DNA from: a virus
Length of the DNA stretch: 21,779 nt
Virus record (IMG/VR): IMGVR_UViG_3300042923_001832
Span: 1-21,779 of that record
Strand: one strand, 5' to 3'
Part shown: piece by piece, positions 217 to 21,779 of the stretch
Numbering within the stretch: the first letter of the stretch is position 1
Layout of the letters: the number at the start of each line of letters is the position of its first letter
The notes under the pieces: model-generated
What the model was told of the DNA's origin: nothing
Database searches by the model: none
The model's input: only the letters and a program-made list of their open reading frames with translations
Program-made: the position numbers and the translations under genes

Positions 217-521
217 CAGAGGGTTTCCTCGTCGGCCGGCAGCACGATCGCGCCATCGGCCGGATTGAGGATCGGCGCCGGAAAGGCGACCGCGTGCGAC
301 GGCGACGGCCCGTGTGGCAGGATCAGCGTCAATTCGAGATCGCCGGCAACGCGGCTGACTTCGCCGACGATCCAGTCGGACAGAACCGCCCCGTTGGGAA
401 CGGTCGCGCCATCGGGTAGCCCGGAAAAGTCAATCGCCTCGCCATTGATGGTGAGCACGTCGCCATTCTTGAAGGCAGTAAGAGTATCGTCGCGACGCTG
501 AGGGGACAGATTGATTTTCAT
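216..521 (-). CDS. Hypothetical phage tail-region protein (101 aa)
   Basis: This small acidic protein begins MKINLSPQRRDDTLTAFKNG and ends PADEETL. The chosen ATG at 521 overlaps the TGA of the fibre gene as TGATG; a GTG nine bases earlier would add only three residues. The chain looks beta-rich (alternating stretches such as GDVLTINGEAIDF and DLELTLILPHG) and has no membrane segment. Genes of this size and place, directly after the fibre gene, recur in alphaproteobacterial prophages and are usually annotated as hypothetical. Being co-translated with the fibre suggests a fibre chaperone or a minor virion part, but nothing in the sequence proves it. Confidence 0.75.
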   Translation of the reverse strand: MKINLSPQRRDDTLTAFKNGDVLTINGEAIDFSGLPDGATVPNGAVLSDWIVGEVSRVAGDLELTLILPHGPSPSHAVAFPAPILNPADGAIVLPADEETL

Positions 522-1855
522 CAGTACCACCGTCCAATTGCATGATAATGGAAAGTCGGGCTGCCGCCCGTCGTGTCTCGCGCAGAGTTACTTACGTTGG
601 TGAAGTAAACGTTATTTATTCCAACAGCAGTTACCCCGGTTACAGACGTATAAACAAAGGGTGACCACGCGCCGTCGTAACTATTAGTTACAACAGGCTG
701 CGTTCCTCCAAGAAATGCGATTGGAAACGTGTAAGCGCCTGCGTCGGCAAACGCGTAGGATGCTAGATTGCCCGGCGCACGAACATGACGACGCCAACAT
801 ATCTGAGTGCCGTCGGCATAACGGACATAATCACCATTCGCATTAGTTCCCCGCTCGACGATCGCCCCGGTCGGCACTCCGCCCGCTTGCGATACGGCGC
901 CGACGACACTGGCCGCGTGGTAGATCTTATAGGCAACGGCTCCGTGGGACCCGCCGCCGACCTTCCACTGGTTGTCGGTATCCAGCCCGAGATAGGCGGC
1001 GAACGCGCCCGGTCGGTGGAGCAGAATCGCGGCAGCGCCGGTGCCGTTGCCGCGTATCTCGACTTCGCCACCAGCGACGGAGGCATTGGCGATGCCGTTG
1101 TCGGCCTGCCCTCCGCCTGCCGCAATCAAGCGGCCGTCCATGGTGTCGCCGCCCTTGCCGAGTGCCCCCAGCGTCGCGCGGGCCGCCTCCTGGTCGACGT
1201 CATCCCGCATGCCCTGGATGAAGGGGGAGAAGCCCAAGGCCGTCAGGAGCGCGCCGACGCTGGTCGATGGCATCAAGCTGCCGAAGTACGTTGAGGGCGC
1301 CACATAGGGCGCCCAGCCCGTCCCGTTCCAGATCGAAATGATGCCCGTCGCGGCGCTCACCACCGTCGTGCCGCGCTCCGGCGCGGTGAAAAGCCAAGCG
1401 GCCCCGGTCCATTGCCCCAGGTTGTTCGCCCGCCCTGCCCAGGCGCCGGTCGGCACGGTGCCGACGACATAGAGGCCGCCGGCGACCGGAGCGCCCGGCG
1501 GGACATTGGCGCCGAGCGACTGCACCTCATAGTTCGGCCGCGCGTTCTCGATCGCGCCGATGGCGCCGAGCACGCTGACGAGGCGGCTGTGCACGAAGGT
1601 CGCGTCGGCCGCCAGCGAGCTCTCAAGGGAGATCGCATAGGATGCGCCGGCGGCACTTGCGCCTGCCCAAGGCCGCGCCAGCGTCGCCGCTGTATCACTC
1701 TCGACCGACGCCAGAGGCATGCTGCTGTCACCGACAAACAGGATGCCGCCGGCGACTCCGTTCACAACGAGGCCGGCGCCGGCGAAGGTCACGGCGGTCG
1801 ACCCGTTAGTGACGGTAACCGTGCCGAGGGAAAAGACGGTGGGCGACGTCGGCAT
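521..1855 (-). CDS. Tail fibre / receptor-binding protein with DUF2793-like domain (444 aa)
   Basis: This is the probable host-recognition fibre. Residues about 1-105 form a Ser/Thr/Ala/Gly-rich N-terminal part. Residues about 108-190 match the DUF2793 pattern: a gly-rich lead, then NNLGQWTGAAWLFTAPERG and an ISIWNGTGWAPY repeat typical of phage fibres. Residues 215-245 (QGMRDDVDQEAARATLGALG, GDTMDGRLIA) and 290-320 (LGLDTDNQWKVGGG, AYKIYHA) are standard tail-fibre segments. Residues 340-357 (ERGTNANGDYVRYADGTQIC) lead into a tip domain ending GRWY. The ATG at 1855 has GAGGA six bases upstream, and that site overlaps the stop of the preceding gene. The tip-coding DNA is clearly AT-richer than the rest (23 of 60 bases are G/C at 601-660), which suggests exchange of the receptor-binding end. 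Confidence 0.85.
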   Translation of the reverse strand: MPTSPTVFSLGTVTVTNGSTAVTFAGAGLVVNGVAGGILFVGDSSMPLASVESDTAATLARPWAGASAAGASYAISLESSLAADATFVHSRLVSVLGAIGAIENARPNYEVQSLGANVPPGAPVAGGLYVVGTVPTGAWAGRANNLGQWTGAAWLFTAPERGTTVVSAATGIISIWNGTGWAPYVAPSTYFGSLMPSTSVGALLTALGFSPFIQGMRDDVDQEAARATLGALGKGGDTMDGRLIAAGGGQADNGIANASVAGGEVEIRGNGTGAAAILLHRPGAFAAYLGLDTDNQWKVGGGSHGAVAYKIYHAASVVGAVSQAGGVPTGAIVERGTNANGDYVRYADGTQICWRRHVRAPGNLASYAFADAGAYTFPIAFLGGTQPVVTNSYDGAWSPFVYTSVTGVTAVGINNVYFTNVSNSARDTTGGSPTFHYHAIGRWY

Positions 1856-1864
1856 GGAATGTCC

Positions 1865-3196
1865 TCAGCTGAAATCGGAGATGTTCATGGTGGCCGTGAA
1901 GCCCGGCGCGCTGCCCCAGCTGCCCGGTCGGAACCAGCCGCATTGCGTGCGGTTCGCTACCCATCCGGCGGGCGCGTGGCCGGAATAGCCCCAGACGCCG
2001 ACGGTCTGGTAGAATCCAAGCACGTCGAAATAGGCGACGCTCCCGCAGCCGCACCACCACTCGCCGATCTGTGGATCCCAGAGGATGAATAAGTTGAACG
2101 GCGGCCCGGCGCCGGCGGGTGGCGGCGACGGCAGGTTGAAGAACCCCGTGCCCTGCGAGGCGCCGACGGCGCTGAAGCCCTTGAGGCGTGGCGTCAGGCG
2201 ATCGGAATCGAACACGAGGTCGGCGATGCCGGCGGCATCGATGCCGATGTTATGCTTGGAGACGCGGACATAATCCCCGGTGATGTCGAGCCGGACGATG
2301 CCCGCCGCACCGTCCACGCCGCCCTGGTAGGCCGGGTCGCTCGCCACAACCGCGAACCGCACCGGCGTCGAGAAGCTCGCCGTCCCGAGAATGAGCAGGC
2401 GGCTCGCATTGATCCAGAAGACGCTGCAGTTGATCTGTTCCGAATTCCCGACGGAGTAGGCGATCACTGGCGGATAGTGAGGATAGGAGCCCGCGAGATC
2501 GACGAACGCGGCCGGCATGGCAAAGGAGTTGACGTTCGGATCGGCGAGCGGGTCGGTCATGACCGTGCCGGTCAAGCTAACGGTCCCGGTCTCGAAGATC
2601 TGGAAGACGTTCTTGCGGGTCGAGACCGCCATCTCGGCGAGGGTCGCCGTGTCGACATCGAAGCCCGGGCGCGAGGCATGAAGGCCGACGCCATGCAAAT
2701 CATGCTGCCCGATAATGATGCCGTTGCCGCCTGCGCTCTCCGCTGCCGTGCCATTGTTGCCGAACACGAAATACACGTAGTCGACGCCTGCGAGCTGCGG
2801 CGAAAGCAGGATGCTGTTGGTGCGCAGCGTGACGCCGCACTGGCGGTAGCCGCGCTGATAGCCCGTGGGCGTGTCGACTCCGCCAGAGGAATAGGTGACC
2901 GCCCCGGCGCCGCGGCGCGCCCATGCCAGTGTCGGCCGCGTCGCGTTCTCCCCGGCGCTCGGCAGCACCTTACACCGGCGGGTGATCGGCCCGTCGGCGC
3001 CGGCGGGATAGGTCACGGTCAGGTTCGCGAGGCTCGCCGCCGACACCACATTGTTGGCGAGAAGCCGCAGTGTCCCGCCCCAGAAGCTGTCGAAAGTCAG
3101 GTAGCGCTCGTCGGTATTCTCATCTTCCGGATCATGCCCCGGCAGCGCCGTGCGCAGCCGCATCGCTCCACCGGTTACGGTCAATGAGACAGGCAT
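1865..3196 (-). CDS. Phage tail-associated protein of unknown function (443 aa)
   Basis: The ORF lies between the tail-tip gene and the fibre gene and is coupled to the tail tip by a TGATG overlap at 3196. It begins MPVSLTVTGGAMRLRTALPG and is rich in Gly, Ser, Thr, Val and aromatic residues with alternating hydrophobic patterns, so a largely beta-sheet virion protein is likely. It has no signal peptide or transmembrane segment. The C-terminal region is unusually aromatic (WDPQIGEWWCGCGSVAYFDV, then a repeat-like WGYSGHAPAGW and CGWFRPGSWG). I recognise no catalytic motif. Position suggests an adaptor joining fibre and tail tip or a second host-contact protein; this is inference from synteny only. 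Confidence 0.75.
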   Translation of the reverse strand: MPVSLTVTGGAMRLRTALPGHDPEDENTDERYLTFDSFWGGTLRLLANNVVSAASLANLTVTYPAGADGPITRRCKVLPSAGENATRPTLAWARRGAGAVTYSSGGVDTPTGYQRGYRQCGVTLRTNSILLSPQLAGVDYVYFVFGNNGTAAESAGGNGIIIGQHDLHGVGLHASRPGFDVDTATLAEMAVSTRKNVFQIFETGTVSLTGTVMTDPLADPNVNSFAMPAAFVDLAGSYPHYPPVIAYSVGNSEQINCSVFWINASRLLILGTASFSTPVRFAVVASDPAYQGGVDGAAGIVRLDITGDYVRVSKHNIGIDAAGIADLVFDSDRLTPRLKGFSAVGASQGTGFFNLPSPPPAGAGPPFNLFILWDPQIGEWWCGCGSVAYFDVLGFYQTVGVWGYSGHAPAGWVANRTQCGWFRPGSWGSAPGFTATMNISDFS

Positions 3197-5799
3197 CAGC
3201 TCGTCGCCCTGATGCGAGCCGGATTGCTGGTGATCAGCAGCTTGCTGCCGGCCCCGGTGAGGGTGAAGTTGTTCACCGTCAGCCGCTTGATCAGGGCCTC
3301 GGTGATGATGACCTGGCCGAGCGTAGTATCGACCACGAAGGGCGGCAGGCGGGCATCGTTGGTCGGGTTGATGATGACGTACTGGTCGGCATAGTTGGCG
3401 ATGCGTGCGAACGGCAGCGCCGGGTTGCCGCCGGTGAAGCCGGTTTCCCAGATCGTGCCGACCTCGCGCCAGGCGCTGCCCACAGTCGCGCGCATGAGCA
3501 CGACGAGGCGGGCGGAGACGTCGCCGCTGCCGGCACGGGCTTCGATCCGCAGGAGGCCGGAAGCGCCGAGGTTGCCGACCGTGGCGCTGACCGTGGTCAG
3601 CGACGACGAAACGGCCAGAAGCCCGCTCTCGGTCGTTTCCACCCGCGCGGTGAGCGCATTCATTGCCGATGCCTGCCCGGCGAGCGTCCCGTTGATGCTG
3701 TCGATCGACGCGCTCACGGCGTTGATGATTTCGGCCATGGCGACGATCCGGTCGCCGAAATCCTGCACGGTGGCCTGCACGCTCTGGATTGCCGTCGCGT
3801 TCGCCTTGCCAAGCCGCGTCGCCACACTCGTGGCGGTAACCTGCCGACCGAGACCGACCGATGTGTCACGGACGATCATGTCCATCTGCTGCTTTGCCGC
3901 CGTCATGTCCTCGCGCATGCGTCGCAGCGCGTCGTAGGCGTCGCCCTTGATGTTGGCGAGGCGGACGTCGATGTCGGTATCGGGGATGGCGTCCGTGGTG
4001 ATCGTTTCGCCGGCGCTCCACACGGTGAGGCGCGGCGGCTGCGTCACCAGCCGGGTCCTGACCTTGTATTCCGTGGCACGCACGACGCCCTCTGAGAGCG
4101 TCACCACCGTCTGATCGACCGAAACCCTCCTGGTGAACACCGACGCCGGCTGCGCCACCGGCCAGTACTGCACGTCGACATAGGCCACGGTGACGTCGGT
4201 GATGTTCGACCACGCCGCCCGGATAGCCGGCAGCAGGCGGCCGTCGTCCCCGACAACGGTCACCGGCGCGAGACTGAAATCCTGCACCTCGCTGAGCAGC
4301 ACCGGCGCGCCGGGCGGCATCGGCGCCACGATCGGCGGCGCCGTGATGCCGTCATAGATCGCGCCGTCGACTTCCTGCAGCGTGACCGAGACGTTGCGCG
4401 GCCCGTCGGCATCGTGCGAGGCGAGCGACAGGCCGGTGATCTGATACACGCGGTCGCCATGCTTGCGGCCGACGCGGCGGATCCAGTCGCCGGGCTCCAG
4501 CACCTGAAACCGCGGGCGCCACACCTCGTCGCTGGTCGCCTCGTAGCGGTTCTCCTCGAGATAGATGCGAGCGAGCTGCGCCGCCTGATCCTTCGACCGC
4601 ACCATAGGGAAGTCGACGGCGATATCGCGGTTGCGGCGGTCGAGCGTCACCAGCGCCGGGCTGGTCTGCGTCTCATAGCCGATCATCGACCAAAGCTGAT
4701 CGGGATCGGGGAAGTTGCCGGCCACCGAGTTGACGAGGTCGCTCATCGAGCGGCGCGCCGTCCAGCGCGCAGGCGAACTGGAGATCAGGTCGTCGTCGGT
4801 GATGGTGGCGACCACCGCCTGATCATGGCCGACCAGCGGCCAGGACCCATCCACCGCATCGACCTTCTTGGCCCCGCACGACAGCTGCAGCGACGTGATG
4901 TTCTCGCCGTGCATGGCGGTGCAGTCGAGCATGATCGAGCAGCGGTAGCGCGTGCCGTAGTCCGTCGTCTCGTCGCAGATGTTCGCCGCCGCGGTCCATT
5001 TCGCCAGCGGCAAATCGCTGGCCGGCATGCCCATGCCGCAGAACATGTCGCCGTTCCATGCGATGCCGCGCCGGTAGTTGTATTCCATCACCACCGGGTT
5101 TTCGGTGTACTCATAGGTGGCGTAGTTCCCCCAGCGGTGGCCGCCGGAGCCGCCAACGGTGGAATCCTTGCGCCAGTCGTAGAGCCGCGCGCCATAGAAC
5201 TCGAAGAAGAAGTCGGGGAAGCTGGTGAGCGGCTCGGTATAGGCTAGCGCGACGTAGACATAGGCGACGCCGGCGCCGATGTGATTGGCGGTCCACCGGT
5301 CGGCCGGGTTTGCCGCCGACACCAGCCCTGCCAGAGCGGCGGTTTGCGTGCCATCGACGAACTGGACGCGGATAAGGTCGGCGTACTCGCCACTGGTGAC
5401 CTTCCGCATCCCGTCTTCGCCGACCGGGCCAAGTGTTACCCATTTGCCGTTGATGGCAACGCGCGACAGGCCGTGGCAGGGGAAGTCCGACAGCGTGTAG
5501 ATCTGCTGGAATATCCCGTTCGCCGGCCCGAACGTGTTCGCGTAGGTATCGTGGCCCGCGATGCCGCAAAGGCCGAGGGCGACCTGCCGCGGGATATCGC
5601 CGCCATATTGCCGTTCGAACTGCACGCCGCCGGGCTGCTTCTCCGCTTTTCCGGCCGTCTCCTTCTGGATGACGCTGGAGAGCACGCTGGCGCCGATGCC
5701 GAGCAGCGCCTGGCCGACGATGCCGAGGCTGCCGACGAACGAGCCGACGGCGCCGATGGCGGCACCAACGGCTCCAACTATCGGGGCAATGAACGGCAT
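3196..5799 (-). CDS. Tail tip / host specificity protein, lambda J-like (867 aa)
   Basis: This large protein is the likely central tail-tip (J-type) protein that plugs the tail tube and starts adsorption and DNA delivery. The first 50 residues are a hydrophobic Ala/Gly/Val stretch (GAVGAAIGAVGSFVGSLGIV) seen at the start of many siphophage tip proteins in this bacterial order. A body of beta-rich domains follows (QYGGDIPRQVALGLCGIAGH; GHRWGNYATYEYTENPVVME). Around residues 500-610 there is fibronectin-like sequence (AWSNITDVTVAYVDVQYWPV). Residues about 640-740 hold a helical segment (MREDMTAAKQQMDMIVRDTS, ARVETTESGLLAVSSSLTTV). The C-terminal part, through FARIANYADQYVIINPTNDA, resembles DUF1983. 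It starts three bases after the DUF6950 gene ends and overlaps the next gene as TGATG. It appears full length. Confidence 0.88.
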   Translation of the reverse strand: MPFIAPIVGAVGAAIGAVGSFVGSLGIVGQALLGIGASVLSSVIQKETAGKAEKQPGGVQFERQYGGDIPRQVALGLCGIAGHDTYANTFGPANGIFQQIYTLSDFPCHGLSRVAINGKWVTLGPVGEDGMRKVTSGEYADLIRVQFVDGTQTAALAGLVSAANPADRWTANHIGAGVAYVYVALAYTEPLTSFPDFFFEFYGARLYDWRKDSTVGGSGGHRWGNYATYEYTENPVVMEYNYRRGIAWNGDMFCGMGMPASDLPLAKWTAAANICDETTDYGTRYRCSIMLDCTAMHGENITSLQLSCGAKKVDAVDGSWPLVGHDQAVVATITDDDLISSSPARWTARRSMSDLVNSVAGNFPDPDQLWSMIGYETQTSPALVTLDRRNRDIAVDFPMVRSKDQAAQLARIYLEENRYEATSDEVWRPRFQVLEPGDWIRRVGRKHGDRVYQITGLSLASHDADGPRNVSVTLQEVDGAIYDGITAPPIVAPMPPGAPVLLSEVQDFSLAPVTVVGDDGRLLPAIRAAWSNITDVTVAYVDVQYWPVAQPASVFTRRVSVDQTVVTLSEGVVRATEYKVRTRLVTQPPRLTVWSAGETITTDAIPDTDIDVRLANIKGDAYDALRRMREDMTAAKQQMDMIVRDTSVGLGRQVTATSVATRLGKANATAIQSVQATVQDFGDRIVAMAEIINAVSASIDSINGTLAGQASAMNALTARVETTESGLLAVSSSLTTVSATVGNLGASGLLRIEARAGSGDVSARLVVLMRATVGSAWREVGTIWETGFTGGNPALPFARIANYADQYVIINPTNDARLPPFVVDTTLGQVIITEALIKRLTVNNFTLTGAGSKLLITSNPARIRATS

Positions 5800-5802
5800 C
5801 GG

Positions 5803-6207
5803 TCAGTCGACCCGGAAGGCGCGCGCGACGTCGGTGCAGGGCAGGAACACGGCGCGATCACCGTCGCGGGTGAGGAAGCCGAGGCCGGTGAAGACCCCAC
5901 CGGTGACGTCACCATTCGGCTGGTGGATGACGCCGATATCCCCGCGCTGCGCCATCATCGCCGGGATCTCGGTGAAGCGGGCCGCGAAGGCATCCGCAAC
6001 GGTCAGGAAGCCGCGCTTCCGCAGCTTCTTCGCGGCGCCGGCCGCCGTGCGATAGCCCCGCGCCCCCGTGAACATCCGCTTGCCGGTGACGGCTTCGACG
6101 GCGTCGTCGGCGATGATGTAGCAATCCGAGATGCCATAGGCCGACGGCAGGGCGATATGCTTCTCGACCACGAGCCGGAGCTCGCGTTCCCATCCCTTGA
6201 TCCGCAT
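5803..6207 (-). CDS. DUF6950-type tail assembly protein (134 aa)
   Basis: The start at 6207 gives MRIKGWERELRLVVEKHIAL, which is where this family normally begins; an upstream start at 6369 would add 54 arginine- and proline-rich residues that look like shadow coding and would overlap the previous gene. Family hallmarks visible are YGISDCYIIADDAVEAVTG (residues about 23-41, with the Asp-Cys pair also seen in NlpC/P60-like tail proteins), ARGYRTAAGAAKKLRKRGF (49-67), MMAQRGDIGVI (84-94) and a C-terminal VFLPCTDVARAFRV. The gene sits immediately before the tail-tip gene, the place of the lambda K-like or NlpC-like tail assembly gene. Whether it has peptidase activity is unclear: I see the Cys but cannot assign the full catalytic set. 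Confidence 0.85.
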   Translation of the reverse strand: MRIKGWERELRLVVEKHIALPSAYGISDCYIIADDAVEAVTGKRMFTGARGYRTAAGAAKKLRKRGFLTVADAFAARFTEIPAMMAQRGDIGVIHQPNGDVTGGVFTGLGFLTRDGDRAVFLPCTDVARAFRVD

Positions 6208-6223: not shown

Positions 6224-7063
6224 TCAGCGCCGGCGAGGCGTCGTCGATCGGGGCACCTGGGGTCGCGGCGCCGCGGCCTTTTCCCGCCCCCAGAAGATGA
6301 CTTCGCGACCGCGCATGGCGGCGTGCTCAAAGAACAGATCGCCCGGCGCGCGACGCGCCTGGTCGACAACGGTGCGCCGGCGCCCGTTGGTGCGGGTGTA
6401 GTCGAGCGCCCGGCTCTCGCACTTGGCCTCGAGCGTGTAGCCGTCCTCCGGATCGTCGATGTGGTCGATCGTGTCGATGTAGCCGCGCTTCAATGCCTGG
6501 ACGTGGAGCAACGCGCCGGTGTCGGGATGGAAATAGACGTCATAGATGGTCACCGGCCGGTCCCGGTAATCCTCGGCTTCGATCGTCAGCAGCACCTCAG
6601 GCGTCAGACCACCCTCGCTCCACCGATATTCGAGCTCACCATCGGCCCGGCGGCGAACGGTCACCAGATCCGGCCGAATGGGCTCCAGCGAGACGATCCG
6701 TTCGCCGCTCCGTTCGATCAGCGCATAGGCGTTACCCCAGAGCTCAAGGCTGATGCACATGAACTCCCAAAAGTCGATCGGCGTCTGATCGGCATTCGGG
6801 CTGTCGCGCAGCACGCGGGCAAGCGGATGATCACCCGCATCCTCGGGCCGGCCGTCGCGGTTACGCTGCACGTCAATGGGAAGCGCAGCCATCGTGCCGG
6901 CCAGCAGATTGACACATGCCCAGGCGGTCGAGAGAGCGAGCACGCTGTCGACCGTGATGCGCTCGCCGGCGTGACTGTCGCCGCCGTCGTAGCCCGGCAA
7001 ATGCCGGTCGCGCAGGCCGAACGGGCGCACGATGTAGCCAAAGGCCTTGCGCAACAGCTTCAC
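6224..7063 (-). CDS. Chimeric ORF: HK97-type portal N-terminus fused to C-terminus of a DUF2163-like tail protein (279 aa)
   Basis: The first part is an HK97-family portal protein: LALSTAWACVNLLAGTMAAL (residues 42-61), GDHPLARVLRDSPNADQT (77-94), FWEFMCISLELWGNAYALIE (98-117) and LEPIRPDLVTVRRRADGELE (126-145) are the usual N-terminal blocks. True portals are about 380-450 residues and continue with the stem and crown. Here, near residues 148-155 (about nt 6598-6622), the sequence changes to another family: EDYRDRPVTIYDVYFHPDTG (164-183), LKRGYIDTIDHID (191-203), CESRALDYTRTNGRRR (215-230) and a terminal GREVIFWGRE (252-261). That is the C-terminal half of the DUF2163-type minor tail protein normally encoded just before the DUF6950 gene. 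The frame is open across the junction. It starts with GTG overlapping the terL stop (GTGA). It is probably non-functional as a portal. Confidence 0.85.
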   Translation of the reverse strand: MKLLRKAFGYIVRPFGLRDRHLPGYDGGDSHAGERITVDSVLALSTAWACVNLLAGTMAALPIDVQRNRDGRPEDAGDHPLARVLRDSPNADQTPIDFWEFMCISLELWGNAYALIERSGERIVSLEPIRPDLVTVRRRADGELEYRWSEGGLTPEVLLTIEAEDYRDRPVTIYDVYFHPDTGALLHVQALKRGYIDTIDHIDDPEDGYTLEAKCESRALDYTRTNGRRRTVVDQARRAPGDLFFEHAAMRGREVIFWGREKAAAPRPQVPRSTTPRRR

Positions 7064-8898
7064 GACGCGGTCGCCATGCTCTTGAGGTAGCCGTCCATAC
7101 CGTCTGCCTCGTCGAATTCGTTGTCCGCCGCGCCGACGGCCATGGCGATCGTCACCATGCCGTCGATCCGGCCTCGCGAGCGCTTCTTATCGAAGGCACG
7201 GTTATCTTGGCCGTCGATGTCCATGTGCGCGTTGGCGGCACAGCTGTGCGTGACGGGCGACGCCTCAATCGTGATCGTGCGGGAGAGGATGCGATCCTCC
7301 AGCCGCTCCACAGATCGGGGCATCGTGAGCTGCTTGTCCTCGAAGCGCACCAGTTTGCCTTGGGCGTGGCTCACCAGCTTGAGGCCCGATCCCTCTGGCT
7401 CATCCGGCCCCGTCCAGCGCCAGACGTCGAACCCGATCTGTTCGCAAGCCGCTATGAAGTCGAGCATGCCGGCCGGGTCGAACGCCAGAAACTCAACCTC
7501 GTTAGCGGCGCATAGCTCTTTCACCTTCGCAGCCACGAAGGTCTTGTCGATCACAGCTCCCGGCACAGCCGCGAGCCGGGTAGTTGGATCAAGTGCCCAC
7601 TGGTCGTATGGCGTGTTGTCCGCCTTGGATCGATCGGCGATGCCGTCCGCGGTGGTCCAGTAGAATGTGCGCACCCAGAGGTGCCCGTCCTTGTCCTCCC
7701 AGCAGATACTGAGAGCCGTCAGGTCGTTCTTTTTCGAGAGGTCTAAGCTTAGCCAGCATCGGCGGCCCTTGACCTTGGCTTCATCGATCTGGCCCTGAAC
7801 CGCAACCCAGGCCTCTTCGGCGATCCAGAACTCGGTGGCGCCAATCGGAATGCCGAAATAGAGCCGTTTCACCGACTGGGCAGTCGATAGGAGCACCCGC
7901 GCGGTGTTCACCTCACCGATGATGTTCTCTTCGGGGAAGGTGATGCCCAGCGCCGGAAGCGCCTTGCGCCAGCAGGCCGGGTTGTCGAAAACGGCCTCGC
8001 GGTCCTTCGTGTCTACCCGGGCAATGAAGGCGAACGCCTCGTCGTCCCTGATCTCGCCGCGCGCGACCTTCTGGTAGAATTCGGAATAGTCGGTGCCGAC
8101 GATCTGGTCCGATGCCGGCGTATTCGTGCCGAGCAGCATCAGCGCATCGCCCGGCATCTTCGCGATGGCGCGCTTCCATGTCTCGATCGAATGGTTCGAC
8201 TTGAACTCGTGGATCTCGTCAGCCAGCACTGCGACAGGCCGCGGCCCAGATATGGCCTCGCCGTTGGCGAGCGACTGGAACTTCGAGCCGGTGGCGGGGT
8301 GCTCGATCTTCCAGGCGTTGTCGCCCTCGCCACGGATCAGCACGTCGCCGGTGTTTTCCAGCGTCTCCCGAATCTCCTCCGGCTCGTCCTCCTGGCCCGG
8401 CGTCGCGGCCCGGCACATCGCGACAGCATCCTTGAACAGGACGTTGGCGGTCGCGCGGTCCTGCCCAATGGAGAACACCTCGGCGCGGGGCACTCCGTAC
8501 CAGCCCATCAGGTAGAGCCCGATCGCCGCCATGATCGGCGACTTCGCCTGCCCCTTCCCGGTCTCCAGCCACGCCGAGCGAAAGCGCATTCGCCCGCTCT
8601 CCTTGCGCCAGCCAAACAGGCTACCCGCAACGAACACATGCCACGGGAGAGGATTGAAAGGCTGTCCAGCCGCCGAACCCGCAGTGATCGGCAGCATCGC
8701 GGGAAAGAACCGCAGTGCTCGGCCGGCCTTCTCCGGAACCCAGTGAAGGCCCCGTCCGCCGTCGACGATATCGCGTAGGTGGCGATCAGCCGCGGATGCT
8801 ACGATTTCTCCTACGACGATCCGCCCGTCGACTGCGTCACGCGCCCAACGCGTCGTCGGATCATCCGGCAGCTTTGCCTTTGAACTCATCCGACGCAC
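7060..8898 (-). CDS. terL: Terminase large subunit (612 aa)
   Basis: The packaging motor ATPase/nuclease cuts concatemers and pumps DNA into the prohead. Residues 111-120 (LETGKGQAKS) are a variant Walker A, 222-231 (VAVLADEIHE) a Walker B with the catalytic Asp-Glu pair, and 255-262 (LLGTNTPA) the coupling motif. The C-terminal RNase H-like nuclease shows SLDLSKKNDLTAL (384-396), FLAFDPAGMLDF around 475, and a final acidic region with MDIDGQDNRAFDKKRSRGRI. Length is normal for TerL. The frame begins at a GTG (8898) with AGGG upstream; an ATG at 8889 (MSSKAKLPDD) is equally possible. It overlaps the terS end by 38 bases and the next gene by three. All key residues look intact, so the motor gene is preserved although its portal partner is truncated. 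Confidence 0.93.
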   Translation of the reverse strand: MRRMSSKAKLPDDPTTRWARDAVDGRIVVGEIVASAADRHLRDIVDGGRGLHWVPEKAGRALRFFPAMLPITAGSAAGQPFNPLPWHVFVAGSLFGWRKESGRMRFRSAWLETGKGQAKSPIMAAIGLYLMGWYGVPRAEVFSIGQDRATANVLFKDAVAMCRAATPGQEDEPEEIRETLENTGDVLIRGEGDNAWKIEHPATGSKFQSLANGEAISGPRPVAVLADEIHEFKSNHSIETWKRAIAKMPGDALMLLGTNTPASDQIVGTDYSEFYQKVARGEIRDDEAFAFIARVDTKDREAVFDNPACWRKALPALGITFPEENIIGEVNTARVLLSTAQSVKRLYFGIPIGATEFWIAEEAWVAVQGQIDEAKVKGRRCWLSLDLSKKNDLTALSICWEDKDGHLWVRTFYWTTADGIADRSKADNTPYDQWALDPTTRLAAVPGAVIDKTFVAAKVKELCAANEVEFLAFDPAGMLDFIAACEQIGFDVWRWTGPDEPEGSGLKLVSHAQGKLVRFEDKQLTMPRSVERLEDRILSRTITIEASPVTHSCAANAHMDIDGQDNRAFDKKRSRGRIDGMVTIAMAVGAADNEFDEADGMDGYLKSMATAS

Positions 8899-9295
8899 GG
8901 GCGGCCCTCGACTTCCGCTCGACCTTGGTCACGGCACCACGACGGCGCGGCGAGAGCCCGAGCTCGGCTTCGAGTGTCGCCGCATCGTTGCCGGCCTCGC
9001 GCATGGCGGTGAAATGCGGGCTCAGCCGTGCGATGGCCTTGTTGTTTCCGCGCCGCGGCTTCGTCACTGCGCCGTGCTCGGCGACGTCGCGTGCCGAACG
9101 GTCAAAGATCACGTATGCCAGCACGAGCCGCTGGATGGCATGCCGATTGGCGGGCGCGAGCAGGTTGCGTTCGCGGAGCTCGGTGGTTACAGCCCGCCAG
9201 TATTCGGCCGCGGCCTCGATCTCCAGATCATCGGTCAACAGCATGCGCCAATGCGGTTCCGGCACGATCTGCCCGGAGCCCTCGATCACGTTCAT
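8861..9295 (-). CDS. terS: Terminase small subunit, P27-like (144 aa)
   Basis: This is the DNA-recognition subunit of the terminase, which binds the packaging site and recruits TerL. The layout fits the P27 family: an N-terminal helical part (EIEAAAEYWRAVTTELRERN, residues 26-45), a helical LVLAYVIFDRSARDVAEHGA block (57-76), a basic KPRRGNNKAIARLSPHF segment (79-95) and a final LEAELGLSPRRRGAVTKVER block (108-127). The place directly upstream of terL and downstream of an HNH gene is the classic order. The start at 9295 has GAGGGG nine bases upstream, part of a tight hairpin listed separately. The protein looks complete. Confidence 0.85.
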   Translation of the reverse strand: MNVIEGSGQIVPEPHWRMLLTDDLEIEAAAEYWRAVTTELRERNLLAPANRHAIQRLVLAYVIFDRSARDVAEHGAVTKPRRGNNKAIARLSPHFTAMREAGNDAATLEAELGLSPRRRGAVTKVERKSRAARASDEFKGKAAG

Positions 9296-11242: not shown

Positions 11243-11470
11243 GCAGAGGGGCTCCGGCGCCAATCTAGCCGCGGCGGGGAAGGCCTTCAGGGCCGGCACA
11301 CGACACCGCGCGGGACGGACCCTCTCTACAAACCAGTGTGGTGGACGCTGACCTGCAAGCCAACGACGGCAAGACCGTCGAGATCATCGCGCTTGTTACG
11401 GACGTGTGGCGGCCGGTAAGATGGTGAAAGGCCGTGTCGTGCGGCGCTTCGGGGTGATTGGGTAGGCCTA

Positions 11471-11547
11471 ATGCCTGCGATGTAGCACGCACAAATGGCC
11501 CTCCTGCGTGCTTGACTAGCAGGCATGATGCGTGCATATGCCTGCTA
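11471..11547 (+). promoter_or_regulatory. Promoter with palindromic operator sites upstream of the P63C gene
   Basis: A -35 like TTGACT (11512-11517) is followed after 17 bases by CATATG (11535-11540) as a weak -10. Two perfect inverted repeats lie on it: AGCACGCA (11484-11491) with TGCGTGCT (11505-11512) just before and into the -35, and TAGCAGGCAT (11517-11526) with ATGCCTGCTA (11538-11547), whose arms abut the -35 and cover the -10. The half-site ATGCCTGC occurs a third time at 11471-11478. A protein bound to these sites would block polymerase. These palindromes differ from the CI-type operators at 17.7 and 18.4 kb, so a separate regulator, perhaps the P63C protein itself or a host factor, is implied. 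Confidence 0.6.
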
Positions 11548-11568
11548 TATGAAATGCAGGAGGGCGCC

Positions 11569-12594
11569 ATGACTGATTCTGACGATCCGGGGAGCCGCCA
11601 TGCCAAAGGCGGCATCGCGCGTGCCAAGGCACTTTCGCCCGAACAGCGCGCCGAAAGCGCTCGAAAGGCCGCCGCTGCACGCTGGGCTAAGCCTCCCGCA
11701 CCGCCGCCAGCCTCCAGTGGTATCAAGGACCTAACTCAAGAAGAGCTAGACGCGCTGCCGTTCGCCAAGTGGCGCGGCAAGATCGATCTGGGCGGCAACG
11801 AACTCGATTGCTATGTCCTCAACGACGAGACGCGCGTCCTTTCGTCCGGCTCGACCACCAAGGCCATCGCGAATATCGAACGAGGAAGCCTGCAGGACTA
11901 CATAGGCCAGAAATCTCTTAACCCATTCATCGATAAGGACAAAATCCTGCAGGAAACTGTGCGATTTACGATTCCTGGAACGCAATGGGCCGCCATCGGT
12001 ATCACCACCGAACACTTCGAACTTATTTGCCGCGGATATGTCCAGGCGTTGTATGAAGGGGCCAGCCTTACCGACCGCCAGCGCGAGATCGCCATCCGAT
12101 GCGCTATGTTGACTGCGGGCCTCAGCCGCATCGGTCTTGACGCCCTTGTCGATGAAGCGACCGGCTACCAATACGAGCGCGCCGAAGATGCTCTGCAGGT
12201 GAAGTTGCGCGCCTTCATTTCGGAAGAGCTACGAGCGTGGGAAAAAACGTTCCCTGATCAGCTTTGGGAGGAGTTCGGACGGCTTACGGGGTGGAAGACC
12301 CCGCTGCAGAGCCGTCCGAAGTGGTGGGGAAAGCTTGTTACAGAACTGATCTACGACACGTTGGACGACGATGTTGCCAAATATCTGAAGGAGAATAAGC
12401 CCCCGGCCGGCGCGCGCTGGCATCAACAGCTGACCGACAACTATGGGGTTCGGCAGTTGGTGTCTCGCTGCTACGAGGTCATTGGCATGGCTAAAACATG
12501 CGATGACATGCACGAGTTGCGCAGTCGAGTTGGGCGGCACTACGGCAAGAAGCCGGTGCAATTCACGATGTTCTTGAAGCCACCAAACGATTGA
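11569..12594 (+). CDS. P63C domain phage protein (341 aa)
   Basis: The ATG at 11569 follows a near-perfect AGGAGG at a spacing of six. The N-terminus has the KGG-type segment (HAKGGIARAKALSPEQRAES, residues 11-30, then ARKAAAARW) that often precedes phage regulatory domains. Residues about 60-190 are a mixed alpha/beta region (FTIPGTQWAAIGITTEHFEL at 133-152). Residues about 194-310 match the P63C pattern: LVDEATGYQYERAEDALQ, LRAWEKTFPDQLWEEFGRLT, GWKTPLQSRPKWWGKLVTEL, IYDTL, and a final HQQLTDNYGVRQL. P63C proteins are widespread in phages and plasmids; their role is poorly known, and antirepressor-like or regulatory functions have been suggested. The gene is a complete transcription unit with its own promoter, operator and terminator inside an otherwise leftward phage, typical of an independently expressed accessory gene. 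Confidence 0.88.
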   Translation: MTDSDDPGSRHAKGGIARAKALSPEQRAESARKAAAARWAKPPAPPPASSGIKDLTQEELDALPFAKWRGKIDLGGNELDCYVLNDETRVLSSGSTTKAIANIERGSLQDYIGQKSLNPFIDKDKILQETVRFTIPGTQWAAIGITTEHFELICRGYVQALYEGASLTDRQREIAIRCAMLTAGLSRIGLDALVDEATGYQYERAEDALQVKLRAFISEELRAWEKTFPDQLWEEFGRLTGWKTPLQSRPKWWGKLVTELIYDTLDDDVAKYLKENKPPAGARWHQQLTDNYGVRQLVSRCYEVIGMAKTCDDMHELRSRVGRHYGKKPVQFTMFLKPPND

Positions 12595-14768: not shown

Positions 14769-15722
14769 TCAGCCCTCCAGCCGGGTTTCGAGGTCAAGGG
14801 ATGCCGCGAGCCCGAACTTCTCCAGGACGGCAGGCGAGAGGCGGCAACCGGGCTGCCCAGGCGGGGCACCCCAGGTGCCGGGCCACAAGCGGCGAGACAT
14901 GGCGTCCCGAACGCGATCGGGATGCGGGAGGTTGTGAGGCCAGTCAGGAGGGAGCGCTGGCGCCGACGCCGGCGAGGCGGCGATAGCATTTGGAGCCTCG
15001 CCATACTCCTCCCAAGCCCCGCTCAGGAACGTGGCGGCCTGTTTGACGTAGCTGGTCCCGAGGTTGCCCTTGCGCTCGACTTCGCGCCGGTATGCCGTCG
15101 CCGATGCGACCAGGCGCCCGGGATCGGTGCCCTTGCCGACGAGAGACCCGAACCGGGTGCGCGCCTTCGTCCAATCCTGCGAGCCGTCTCGCTTCGGATA
15201 GGCCGCTTTGAAGTCCAGAAACGCGGCTTCAATGTCCGATTTTGAATTAGGGACTATAGGGTTATTTCTAGTCTCTGGATTTAGAACGCGCGCGCGATGC
15301 TTGGAACCCGCTTCAAGCCCGGCTTCAGCCAAGCCACTGATATTGCTTTCCTCGGCGTTCTTTTCAGCCTTAAGTTTGCGAGTTTCAGCCGATTTATTTC
15401 CGCCTTTCGCGCCGTTTTCGGCGAGCTTTCGGGCAGTTTCCGCGGAGATATCGACCTCGCGCATCGCGCGCGGATTGATGATGAAACCGCCCTCGGCGAC
15501 AATCTTGCCCTCGTCGATCAGCGTGGCCCGGATCGTGTTCCATTTGCGGACGGAGCATCCGCAGTGACCAGCGATCCAATGCGCATTATCCGGGATAGGT
15601 CCGCGGCGGTCATAGATCAGATCGAGCACCACCGAATAGGCACCCTTGACCTCCAGAGGGAGCCCCGCTGTGCCGTGGAGAAAGTCTGACGGGTAGCGCC
15701 GATACCAGGGCTTTTCGCTCAT
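14769..15722 (-). CDS. DUF1376 (YdaU-type) phage replication protein (317 aa)
   Basis: The N-terminal DUF1376 domain is clear: KPWYRRYPSDFLHGTAGLPL (residues 4-23), EVKGAYSVVLDLIYDRRGPI (24-43), AGHCGCSVRKWNTIRATLID (51-70) and an EGGFIINPRA wing end (77-86). The following NGAKGGNKSAETRKLKAEKN (about 103-122) is a typical charged linker. A second domain (IEAAFLDFKAAYPKRDGSQD and YVKQAATFLSGAWEEYGEAP) is the helicase-interaction-like segment often found in phage O/DnaD-type proteins. The family is thought to replace or help the initiator/loader at phage origins. The gene is joined to the helicase gene as TGATG. Full length. Confidence 0.85.
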   Translation of the reverse strand: MSEKPWYRRYPSDFLHGTAGLPLEVKGAYSVVLDLIYDRRGPIPDNAHWIAGHCGCSVRKWNTIRATLIDEGKIVAEGGFIINPRAMREVDISAETARKLAENGAKGGNKSAETRKLKAEKNAEESNISGLAEAGLEAGSKHRARVLNPETRNNPIVPNSKSDIEAAFLDFKAAYPKRDGSQDWTKARTRFGSLVGKGTDPGRLVASATAYRREVERKGNLGTSYVKQAATFLSGAWEEYGEAPNAIAASPASAPALPPDWPHNLPHPDRVRDAMSRRLWPGTWGAPPGQPGCRLSPAVLEKFGLAASLDLETRLEG

Positions 15723-17155
15723 CAGCCCTCCCCGTTCGGATCGCGCACCGCCGAGGCGGCGATGTCGACGAACAAGTCGACGCCGACGGTCGGCCCGTTG
15801 CGGTTCTTGGCGGCGATGATTTCGAGGCGGTCGCGCACGAGGTCGTAGCGCGCCAAGGCGCTCGGATCGCCTTCCTTGTATTCGCTCGTGGTCGCGACGT
15901 AGTACGCCTCGCGATAGACGAAGAGCACGGCGTCGGCGTCCGCTTCGATGTCTCCGCTCTCTCGCAGATCCGCAAGTTGCGGGCGCTTGTCTTCCCGGCT
16001 CTCAACGCCGCGATTGAGCTGAGCAAGGAGCACGATGCAGACACCCTGCTCCTTCGCCACCGCGCGAAGGCCCGCGGTGATCTCGCCGACCTCATAGACC
16101 CGATTGCCCTTGTACCGATCAGCAGCGCGCAGGAGCTTCAGATAGTCGATGAAGACCACGCGCAGATCGACGCCGCGCGCGGCGAGGTTCCTCTTGGCCG
16201 CCAAGACCCGCGCCGACACCTCGGCAACGGACAAACGTGCCGAGTAGTCCAACTCCAGCGGCAGCGTCTTCAGCATGGCGTCGGCGCGCAGCAGGCTTTC
16301 CATCTGCGCGTCGGACACACGGCCGCGCTTCACGGCCGAATAGGCGATGGCGTTTCCGCGGTGAAAAGCGACATCGGTAACGAGCCGCGCGGCCAGATCG
16401 TCCCGCCCCATTTCCAGGCTGAAGTAAAGCGTGCCGTTGCCGGCCGAGGCGCACTGCCAAGCCGAACTCGTGCCGCAAGTGGTCTTGCCCATGCCGGGGC
16501 GTCCGGCGAGCACCACGAGCTGGCCAGGGATATATCCGCCCATGACGTCGTCGAGCGAGCGCCAGCCGGTCGTTGCACCCAGCAACATCGGCTCGCCCAT
16601 GCGGTGCGCATTCACCTTTGTCAGCAGCGCCTCAGAGCTGGCGCCGGCCGGCTGGCGGGTGCCTTCTTTCTCCGCGATGCCAGCGCGCACCTCGTCGACA
16701 GACGTCAGGATCGCGGCGAGGCGCTCGGATGCCATGCCGGGCGACGCTTCCACCTCCCGAACCGCGGCAAAGACGGCACGCAGCGCACCAGCGTCGCGGA
16801 TGTCGCGGGCATAGGACTTGACCATGGACGGCGGCGCTGCAGCGGAGCCGAGACGCGCCACGTAGGCGCCGAACGTCAGATCACCGAGGATCGGCTGATT
16901 CCATCCCGCCCCGAGGTCGTGCGCGAGAGACCGGGCATCAGAAAGGGAACCCCGTGCCGCACGCTCTGCCATAGCCGCATAGAGCCTGCCGTGCAGGGGC
17001 TCGGCGAAGCTCTCCGGCGATAGGAGTGCCGACGCCGCTGGGAAGGCGTCAGGCATCACCAGAAGCGCGCCGAGCAACGATTGCTCAATCTCGACGATCG
17101 CGTGGTTGGCATCTGCGGGCCGAACCGCGATAGCCATAGAAGACATGTCCATCAT
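15722..17155 (-). CDS. Replicative DNA helicase, DnaB-like (477 aa)
   Basis: This hexameric 5'-3' helicase would unwind phage DNA at the fork. The N-terminal DnaB domain covers about 20-110 (VEIEQSLLGALLVMPDAFPA, PLHGRLYAAMAERAARGSLS). The RecA-like domain begins near 195 (TTGWRSLDDVMGGYIPGQLV). Walker A is GRPGMGKTT (218-226), the catalytic glutamate lies in YFSLEM (244-249), Walker B is VVFIDYLKLL (333-342), the sensor is LLAQLNRGVE (376-385), and the RPQLADLRESGDIEADADAV block (391-410) is diagnostic of DnaB. The start at 17155 overlaps the upstream gene as ATGA; several internal ATGs (17146 and later) are possible. Everything needed for activity appears present. Confidence 0.93.
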   Translation of the reverse strand: MMDMSSMAIAVRPADANHAIVEIEQSLLGALLVMPDAFPAASALLSPESFAEPLHGRLYAAMAERAARGSLSDARSLAHDLGAGWNQPILGDLTFGAYVARLGSAAAPPSMVKSYARDIRDAGALRAVFAAVREVEASPGMASERLAAILTSVDEVRAGIAEKEGTRQPAGASSEALLTKVNAHRMGEPMLLGATTGWRSLDDVMGGYIPGQLVVLAGRPGMGKTTCGTSSAWQCASAGNGTLYFSLEMGRDDLAARLVTDVAFHRGNAIAYSAVKRGRVSDAQMESLLRADAMLKTLPLELDYSARLSVAEVSARVLAAKRNLAARGVDLRVVFIDYLKLLRAADRYKGNRVYEVGEITAGLRAVAKEQGVCIVLLAQLNRGVESREDKRPQLADLRESGDIEADADAVLFVYREAYYVATTSEYKEGDPSALARYDLVRDRLEIIAAKNRNGPTVGVDLFVDIAASAVRDPNGEG

Positions 17156-17727: not shown

Positions 17728-17749
17728 ACGCATTGTGGGAAAAATGGGA

Positions 17750-18364
17750 ATGATGAGCGAACCAGGCGAACGTTTGGCTGAGGCGCGCAAGCGTGCCGGC
17801 TACAAGACAGGCTCCGACGCGGCGCGCGCGTTCGGCTGGCCCGTCTCTACCTATCTCGGGCACGAGAACGGGGACCGCATCCCCAGGATCGACGCAGCCA
17901 AGCGATACAGCCGCGCCTTCCGCGTACCGTGGACTTGGATCCTCGACGGCGGCGAACTGCCGGAGGATTACAGGCCAACGCTCCCGCTCGTCGGCTATGT
18001 CGGGGCCGGCGCAGAAGTGATCCCGTTTGATGACCACGCAATGGGTGCGGGCCTCGATGAGATAGAGGCTCCGCCAGGAGCTCCGGCCGATGCAGTTGCG
18101 GTGAAGGTCCGCGGCGAAAGCATGTGGCCGGTCTTTCACGATGGCGACACCATCGTCTTCGACGAGCGGCGATCCGGCCCGGATTTGGTGACCTATGTCG
18201 GGCGCGAGTGCATCATCCGTCTGGAGGACGGGCGCACCTTCATCAAGATGCTGACAAAGGGATCGGCTGAAGGCTTCTGGACGCTGATCAGCTATAATGC
18301 GCCCCCTGTCACGGACGTCGCCGTGGAATGGGCCGCGAAAGTGCACTGGATAGAACGAGCCTGA
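17750..18364 (+). CDS. CI-like phage repressor, XRE domain plus S24 peptidase (about 204 aa)
   Basis: The N-terminal XRE helix-turn-helix covers residues about 5-55 (ERLAEARKRAGYKTGSDAAR, WPVSTYLGHENGDRIPRIDA). The C-terminal LexA/CI S24 domain starts near residue 78 (LPLVGYVGAGAEVIPFDD) with a plausible Ala-Gly self-cleavage bond at about 86-87. The catalytic Ser lies in VRGESMWPVFHDGD (Ser about 124) and the Lys in TFIKMLTKG (Lys about 166), so RecA-stimulated autocleavage should be intact. Four starts are possible (GTG 17735, ATG 17744, 17750, 17753); 17750 is preferred because GGGA lies nine bases before it. The gene sits between two operator pairs and should hold both lytic arms off until DNA damage. 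Confidence 0.92.
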   Translation: MMSEPGERLAEARKRAGYKTGSDAARAFGWPVSTYLGHENGDRIPRIDAAKRYSRAFRVPWTWILDGGELPEDYRPTLPLVGYVGAGAEVIPFDDHAMGAGLDEIEAPPGAPADAVAVKVRGESMWPVFHDGDTIVFDERRSGPDLVTYVGRECIIRLEDGRTFIKMLTKGSAEGFWTLISYNAPPVTDVAVEWAAKVHWIERA

Positions 18365-20333: not shown

Positions 20334-20757
20334 TCCTCTCGCGCGAATTCGGCTCCGCCCGAGCATCGACCAGTGGCGCGACGATGAATCTATGACACTC
20401 GCGGAAGCCGCAGCCCTATTCTTCCCTGAAGGTCCGCTAACCACCGCGTCATTCCGCAAGGCTGCGAAGCGCGGCGACCTTGCGGTACGGCGCCTGCTGG
20501 GCAAGGATTTCACCACTCCCATGTCCGTCCGCGAGATGTTGAAGCCATGCCGGGCCGAAAGCCAAAGCCTCCCCGCCTCTATCTCCGAGAGCGCGACGGC
20601 CGCGAAAGGCTCTGGGTTATCATCGACCGGGGACGGGAAATCAGCACAGGCTGCGGCGAAAAAGAGGTTCGCGGAGCTGAAGAACGCTTCCAGGAATATC
20701 TCGCCGGCAAACACGTCTCGACCGTCGGCACCCGTGATTTCACTCGGCTCAAAGTAG
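20323..20757 (+). CDS. xis: Excisionase-like protein with C-terminal extension (144 aa)
   Basis: Residues about 24-70 form a MerR/Xis-type winged helix pattern: MTLAEAAALFFPEGPLTTAS, then FRKAAKRGDLAVRRLLGKDF and TTPMSVREML. This would bend DNA at the attachment sites and steer the integrase toward excision. From about residue 75 the chain becomes a low-complexity Ser/Ala/Lys tail (SESATAAKGSGLSSTGDGKS; KNASRNISPANTSRPSAPV), encoded in the same 211 bases that open the integrase gene in another frame. The folded domain ends where the overlap begins, so the tail may be dispensable. Operon position under operators O3/O4 fits expression on induction. Confidence 0.78.
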   Translation: MARDPLARIRLRPSIDQWRDDESMTLAEAAALFFPEGPLTTASFRKAAKRGDLAVRRLLGKDFTTPMSVREMLKPCRAESQSLPASISESATAAKGSGLSSTGDGKSAQAAAKKRFAELKNASRNISPANTSRPSAPVISLGSK

Positions 20758-21779
20758 CCGATGTCCTGACCTTTTACGCCGAGGCAAAGGCCCGTCCGGC
20801 CACCGCGACGGTGAAAGCCGCGGCGCGCTACCGAGAGATGCTCGCGTTCTGCGAAACGCTGTCGGAATGGTGGGGTGGGAAGAACGTCAGTGATATCCGC
20901 GGTGAGACATGCCGCCAGTACGTCGAGTGGCGGACCGCCCAGCCGCTGCGCCGCGCCAAGACCGAAGCGGCGCTCAAGAAGCGCGTCAGCCCCGCCACCG
21001 CGCGCCGTGAACTCGAGGTGCTTCGTGCGGCCGTGAACCTGTATCACGCCGAGTACACCCTTCCCTCAGTTCCCAAAATTACACTGCCGGAGAAGTCGGT
21101 GCCGCGCGATCGGTGGCTCACCCGTGCGGAGGTTGCCGCGCTGCTGTGGGCATGCCTGGGTTGGCGGCGCGAGGTCGACACAGGCCGCTGGGCTAAGATC
21201 CAGCCGGAAGGCATCCGCAAGCAGACGCGTACCCGACGCGCGCACATTGCTCGATTCATCCTCATCGGCCTCTACACCGGCACGCGCCACGAGGCGATCG
21301 AGCGGCTGCAGTGGCACGCGAATGTCGATGGTGGCTGGGTCGACCTCGGCCGCGGCTTGCTCTATCGGCGCGGCTCAGGAGAGCGGGAAACGAAAAAGCG
21401 TAGACCGCCGGCGCGCATTCCTCACCGTCTCATGCCTCATCTTCTCCGCTGGCAGCAGTTGGACCGGACGCACCCGACCTCGAACGAGCACCCGATCAGG
21501 CATGTCATTCACACCAGCACCGGCGAGGGCTTGTCTACGCCGATCCGAACAGGCTGGGAGGGCATCCGGAACGACGCCGCCCTCGGCGCTGACGTCGTCC
21601 CCCATGTGCTGCGACACACCTGCGTCACCTGGCAGCTTCAGGCCGGCGTGCTTCCGTGGGAGGTTGCCGGCGCCGTCGGCATGACCGTCGAGCAGATCGA
21701 GAACGGGTATGGTCATCACTCGCCGGACTATCAAAAAGCGAGCGCAGAGGCGTTTGGGAAGAGAACAACGCCGCCATGA
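20547..21779 (+). CDS. int: Tyrosine integrase (410 aa)
   Basis: This site-specific recombinase integrates and excises the element. The N-terminal arm-binding segment reads PPRLYLRERDGRERLWVIID and REISTGCGEKEVRGAEERFQ. A SAM-like core-binding domain covers about 70-175. The catalytic domain shows Arg247 in GLYTGTRHEAIERLQW, a Lys region near 283-284, the HxxR box HVLRHTCVTWQ (His353, Arg356), His390/391 in GYGHHSPDY and the nucleophile Tyr395. Length and residues are complete; the stop ends exactly at the window edge. Its first 211 bases overlap the xis gene out of frame. The attachment site should lie just beyond the right edge and is not seen. Confidence 0.93.
   Translation: MPGRKPKPPRLYLRERDGRERLWVIIDRGREISTGCGEKEVRGAEERFQEYLAGKHVSTVGTRDFTRLKVADVLTFYAEAKARPATATVKAAARYREMLAFCETLSEWWGGKNVSDIRGETCRQYVEWRTAQPLRRAKTEAALKKRVSPATARRELEVLRAAVNLYHAEYTLPSVPKITLPEKSVPRDRWLTRAEVAALLWACLGWRREVDTGRWAKIQPEGIRKQTRTRRAHIARFILIGLYTGTRHEAIERLQWHANVDGGWVDLGRGLLYRRGSGERETKKRRPPARIPHRLMPHLLRWQQLDRTHPTSNEHPIRHVIHTSTGEGLSTPIRTGWEGIRNDAALGADVVPHVLRHTCVTWQLQAGVLPWEVAGAVGMTVEQIENGYGHHSPDYQKASAEAFGKRTTPP

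Follow-up and report, generated by a model that had tools for sequence, protein, structure and literature searches.

The window (the whole stretch of viral DNA analyzed here, 21,779 nucleotides) contains an open reading frame of 279 residues in which the start of a phage portal gene runs in frame into the end of a tail hub gene, and the analysis confirmed that this frame (6224–7063, minus strand) is a true portal/hub chimera. The element that carries it is very probably a siphophage-type prophage that lost about 9–10 kb of late genes by illegitimate recombination and is now defective. The coordinates of the two halves, the junction and the other genes of the prophage are listed in Table 1.

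Table 1. Features of the prophage in the window.
Feature	Coordinates	Strand	Basis
Tail fibre protein	521..1855	-	phrog_2712, 7.5e-33
Tail-end protein, no family named, intact	1865..3196	-	95% to G011, 443/443 aa
Tail tip (megatron-like), intact	3196..5799	-	PF13550; phrog_5616, 5e-163; 87% to G011, 867/867 aa
DUF6950 protein, intact, first gene after the chimera	5803..6207	-	PF22262, 5e-34 over 134/134 positions; 99% to G011
Tail hub, C-terminal ~127 residues (chimera residues 152–279)	6224..6610	-	phrog_2048; G011/L023 hub
Deletion/recombination junction (residues 150–151, just before residue 152)	6611..6616	-	DNA comparison with G015 portal and G011/L023/L025 hub
Portal, N-terminal third (chimera residues 1–149)	6617..7063	-	PF04860; relatives' portals
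Terminase large subunit, intact	7060..8898	-	PF20441/PF03354; 90% to G012
Terminase small subunit, intact	8861..9295	-	PF05119, 7e-18; 92% in L132 of G012
DnaB-like replicative helicase of the prophage	15722..17155	-	PF03796, 2e-65
CI-like repressor	17735..18364	+	phrog_4, 7e-30
Integrase, right end of the prophage	20547..21779	+	phrog_1, 1e-30

The two halves of the chimeric frame and their join

The chimeric frame begins with a GTG codon and overlaps the stop of the large terminase gene (terL) by 4 nt. When the whole frame was used as a query, residues 45–158 matched the family Phage_portal (PF04860) over profile positions 1–108 of 321 (1.1e-30), and residues 152–275 matched phrog_2048, labelled 'tail protein', over positions 251–376 of 390 (1.5e-24). 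Searched alone, residues 1–150 returned PF04860 (4e-30, profile positions 1–102 of 321) together with portal PHROGs and no tail families, and residues 149–279 returned phrog_2048 (1.8e-25, again positions 251–376 of 390) and no portal families. The separate, non-overlapping matches uphold the proposal of an earlier note on this DNA that the gene starts as a portal and turns, near residue 150, into the end of a DUF2163-like tail protein. The label itself was well chosen, as an intact homologue of the hub (208 residues, G011/L160) matches over its residues 8–150 the family PF09931, 'Baseplate hub protein, N-terminal attachment domain', the family once named DUF2163. The full portal domain is absent from the chimera, at most positions 1–108 of the 321 being matched, and of the two parts of a hub, the N-terminal attachment domain and the C-terminal part, it holds only the stretch covered by the phrog_2048 match.

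At the DNA level, the similarity to the G015 portal gene runs in the window until ...TATCGGTGGAGCGAGG, and the similarity to the hub genes of G011, L023 and L025 restarts at GGTCTGACGCC. This places the join at residues 150–152, inside the interval of nt 6598–6622 in which it had been expected. The parental sequences have at most a few bases in common at the join, which points to illegitimate and not to homologous recombination. The open frame across the join had been attributed either to chance or to selection against polar effects; an in-frame join is a one-in-three chance, which is enough, and selection is neither needed nor supported. The join would thus have kept the frame by chance and left an open reading frame with a portal start and a hub end.

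The genes missing between the two halves

The portals of the closest relatives are full length, with 418–450 residues. The portal part of the chimera is 73% identical to the 418-residue portal of G015/L026, with which it has the GTG start in common, and 60% identical to the portals of G014 and G027, and the hub part is 97–98% identical to the hub of G011/L023. A single prophage of the same genus, that of G014, encodes a complete portal of 450 residues and a complete hub of 211 residues, and the points in it that match the two sides of the join lie about 9.9 kb apart. The interval holds the rest of the portal gene, a protease, a 431-residue capsid protein, connectors, an 805-residue tape measure protein, a distal-tail-like protein of 219 residues and the hub up to about residue 80; the protease, the capsid, the connectors and the distal tail protein are labelled by their position and their resemblance in sequence as opposed to profile matches, and the family of the tape measure is confirmed by PF20155 in G011. 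In G027, both the portal and the hub halves are present at a spacing similar to that of G014.

Further loci show the same linkage. In L171, a hub of the window type is linked to a portal at 48–52% and a capsid at 53%, and in L151, L153, L167, L168 and L170 a portal and a hub of the window type are linked, with the portal cut by the end of the locus. The N- and C-terminal halves of the hub adjoin in 27 of the 27 loci that hold the region; 28 loci had been fetched with the tail-tip profile, one of which (L158) starts downstream of the hub, and L160, L162 and L163 are identical to the records L024, L023 and L025. A distal tail gene lies upstream of the hub in 26 of these 27 loci. The window itself yielded no match for the capsid, protease, tape measure or distal tail genes and none for a full portal. 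The earlier note had expected a complete relative to hold the rest of the portal, the protease, capsid, connectors, tube and tape measure between the two halves. This content is correct as listed; the extent was drawn too short, as the loss also takes in the distal tail gene and the hub up to about codon 81.

In the favored reading, the illegitimate recombination event broke the portal gene at codon ~150 and the hub gene at codon ~82, and the rest of the portal, the prohead protease, the major capsid protein, the connectors, the tail tube, the tape measure, the distal tail protein and the beginning of the hub were lost. The window is mosaic in its affinities, and its closest relatives differ from one side of the join to the other. 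The two terminase genes are closest to those of G012 (90–92%), whose portal differs (28–31%), the portal part to that of G015 (73%), and the tail end to that of G011 (87–98%), whose portal is only 28% identical. A single intact parent with terL, portal and tail all of the window type was not found among the relatives. In the records that combine a close terL with a portal of the window type (L054, L062 and L088–L102), no tail tip of the window type was found, except for a weak match of 29% in the L101 record. Such a pattern is what would be seen had the junction arisen by illegitimate recombination between two similarly organized phages or prophages, with the lost block never present as a whole in one parent. 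We regard this origin as unlikely, though worth keeping in view: phages of this kind are normally modular mosaics and one mosaic parent suffices, and portals and hubs of the window type occur in one phage in G014, in G027 and, at lower identity, in L171. Because they co-occur in this way, it is simplest to assume that one mosaic phage underwent the deletion, and we favor an origin within one phage. The single deletion claimed by the earlier note is accordingly the simplest reading, but not a proven one, given that each side of the join has its nearest relative in a different phage.

A further mosaic joint was observed near the end of terL. This gene is 90% identical to that of G012 up to about residue 599, but it ends in residues (GYLKSMATAS) that resemble G015, as does its overlap of 4 nt with the portal start (window 7060–7120). 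The terL gene of G015 is otherwise unrelated to that of the window, which points to an older joint at this place.

Integrity of the assembly and state of the remaining genes

The genome is a draft assembly of 71 contigs, in which the portal gene of another prophage is broken between two contigs that overlap by 33 bp; it could be asked whether reads from two places were misjoined, the prophage being complete in the cell. We consider such an artefact improbable. The junction sequence was found once, and the few bases that the parental sequences have in common there are far below an assembly k-mer. None of the contigs holds the missing C-terminal part of the portal, the capsid, the tape measure, the distal tail gene or the N-terminal part of the hub, in a genome rated 99.6% complete. 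A query of 1902 residues from the missing proteins was matched in the own genome at 45% at best, by proteins in other phage-like clusters, and at 93–99% in G011 and G015 and 43–66% in G014. The N-terminal part of the hub, found at 90–98% in the record of L023 and in G011, is absent from the own genome. Reads could have been wrongly joined only through a k-mer common to both sides, of which none exists, and the block should then have remained as a contig of its own, which makes misassembly unlikely. A test for a wrong join through a repeat did not support misassembly either: the junction is unique and contains no repeat, and the block was not found elsewhere in the genome.

The prophage split in this way, the second one of the genome, on contigs C17 and C42, was examined as a possible holder of the missing block and rejected, as its portal pieces join each other through the 33-bp overlap and are only 31–34% identical to portals of the window type. 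The overlap is exact (G000:C17:1–33 and G000:C42:18284–18316; L038 and L045), and annotating the two contigs separately would yield two truncated portals. Besides its portal, this prophage encodes proteins that by sequence resemblance are a capsid, a tape measure and a protease of the ClpP-like kind. A separate 413-residue portal with a protease nearby is found at G000:C65:33405–35339, with similar proteins in several genomes of the same genus; this is possibly a gene transfer agent cluster.

The genes on both sides of the chimera are intact, as they had looked in the earlier note. The two terminase subunits, the DUF6950 protein, the tail tip and the 443-residue tail-end protein align with their relatives end to end or nearly so, the DUF6950 gene (5e-34) being placed directly downstream of the chimera. 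The integrase, repressor, helicase and replication genes have kept their open reading frames. No sign of relaxed selection was seen in the synonymous and non-synonymous counts on the window branch for the C-terminal part of the hub, DUF6950 and the tip, with 37 synonymous and 23 non-synonymous changes on this branch and 70 and 52 on the sister branch. The counts for the C-terminal part of the hub by itself (4/3 on the window branch versus 14/1 on the sister branch) are too few for a conclusion. The absence of relaxed selection fits a recent deletion; it dates nothing, as most of the divergence may predate the deletion. On balance, the deletion is presumably recent.

A P63C-domain protein (PF10546, phrog_2384) is encoded between the packaging and the replication genes (window 11458–12594, plus strand). 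At the left edge of the window, the contig breaks within a small gene of the tail region (1–215). The window covers one end of the prophage; neither its remaining part nor a second attachment site was found.

Function of the remnant and comparison with known systems

Two marks of a defective prophage were found: integration and regulatory genes are present (integrase, CI-like repressor and DnaB helicase), and essential virion genes are missing, in the window and, for the same phage type, in the rest of the genome. The product of the chimeric gene would be no portal, with two thirds of the domain lost, and no working hub, with ~80 N-terminal residues lost. With no capsid encoded in the part of the element seen here, it alone would be unable to build a particle. 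Portal and hub function, and particle production by the element alone, have thus probably been lost.

A remnant kept for a function, with the fusion itself selected, would see its genome packaged as a satellite by its own terminase into the heads of another prophage, or would serve as a retained adsorption module. The open integrase, repressor, helicase, terminase and tail-tip genes agree with such a role, as do the window branch without relaxed selection and the second prophage on C17 and C42, with its portal, protease, capsid and tape measure and a TerL that is 68% identical. We nevertheless hold this to be highly improbable. The intact genes are equally well explained by a young deletion, and satellites are recognized by recurrence, whereas this arrangement is known from one genome only. 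No fused portal/hub frame was found in 30 genomes of the genus, in 297 genomes of the family or among the viral hits. A scan of genome contigs with the chimera as query returned no relative, and one with the tail-tip alignment returned relatives at 40–53% identity only. The fusion therefore lacks the recurrence of a phage satellite of the PICI or cfPICI kind. The C17/C42 prophage could in principle supply heads to the truncated element, and nothing here indicates that it does. That the element is a working satellite, with its own terminase and tail tip and with heads and tail tubes borrowed from the second prophage of the same cell, is scarcely credible.

The very probable reading, a decayed prophage, has a practical side that sets the case apart, in that a large deletion is hidden inside one open reading frame. 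Naming by best hit could report the chimera as a portal protein and the prophage would be rated too complete; a check of the coverage of the portal model would expose such cases.

The tail end of the window resembles genes g13–g15 of RcGTA (PMC7296036) in the order of hub, small protein and megatron-like tip. The intact homologue of the window hub carries the attachment domain PF09931, like the RcGTA hub g13. In contrast to RcGTA, the hub of the window is without the N-terminal part of this domain and is fused to the start of a portal, and genes for the head, the tail tube and the tape measure are missing from the window. The intact prophages of G014 and G027 resemble the window with the portal at about 60%, the hub at 76–78%, DUF6950 at 71%, the tip at 54–55% and an identical gene order. 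Unlike the window, G014 has ~10 kb of genes for head and tail between a full portal and a full hub, and the terL there is only about 20% identical.

Incomplete prophages are preferentially without portal, capsid and lysis genes, and are enriched in tail fibre and integrase genes (PMC7744054, PMC6379469). The element in the window resembles defective (cryptic, 'grounded') prophages, in which structural genes are deleted and the integrase and tail-end genes are retained. It differs from the usual defective prophages in that both breakpoints are intragenic, an open in-frame fusion is left and the terminase is retained. It is best read as ordinary prophage decay, one more example of a known phenomenon.
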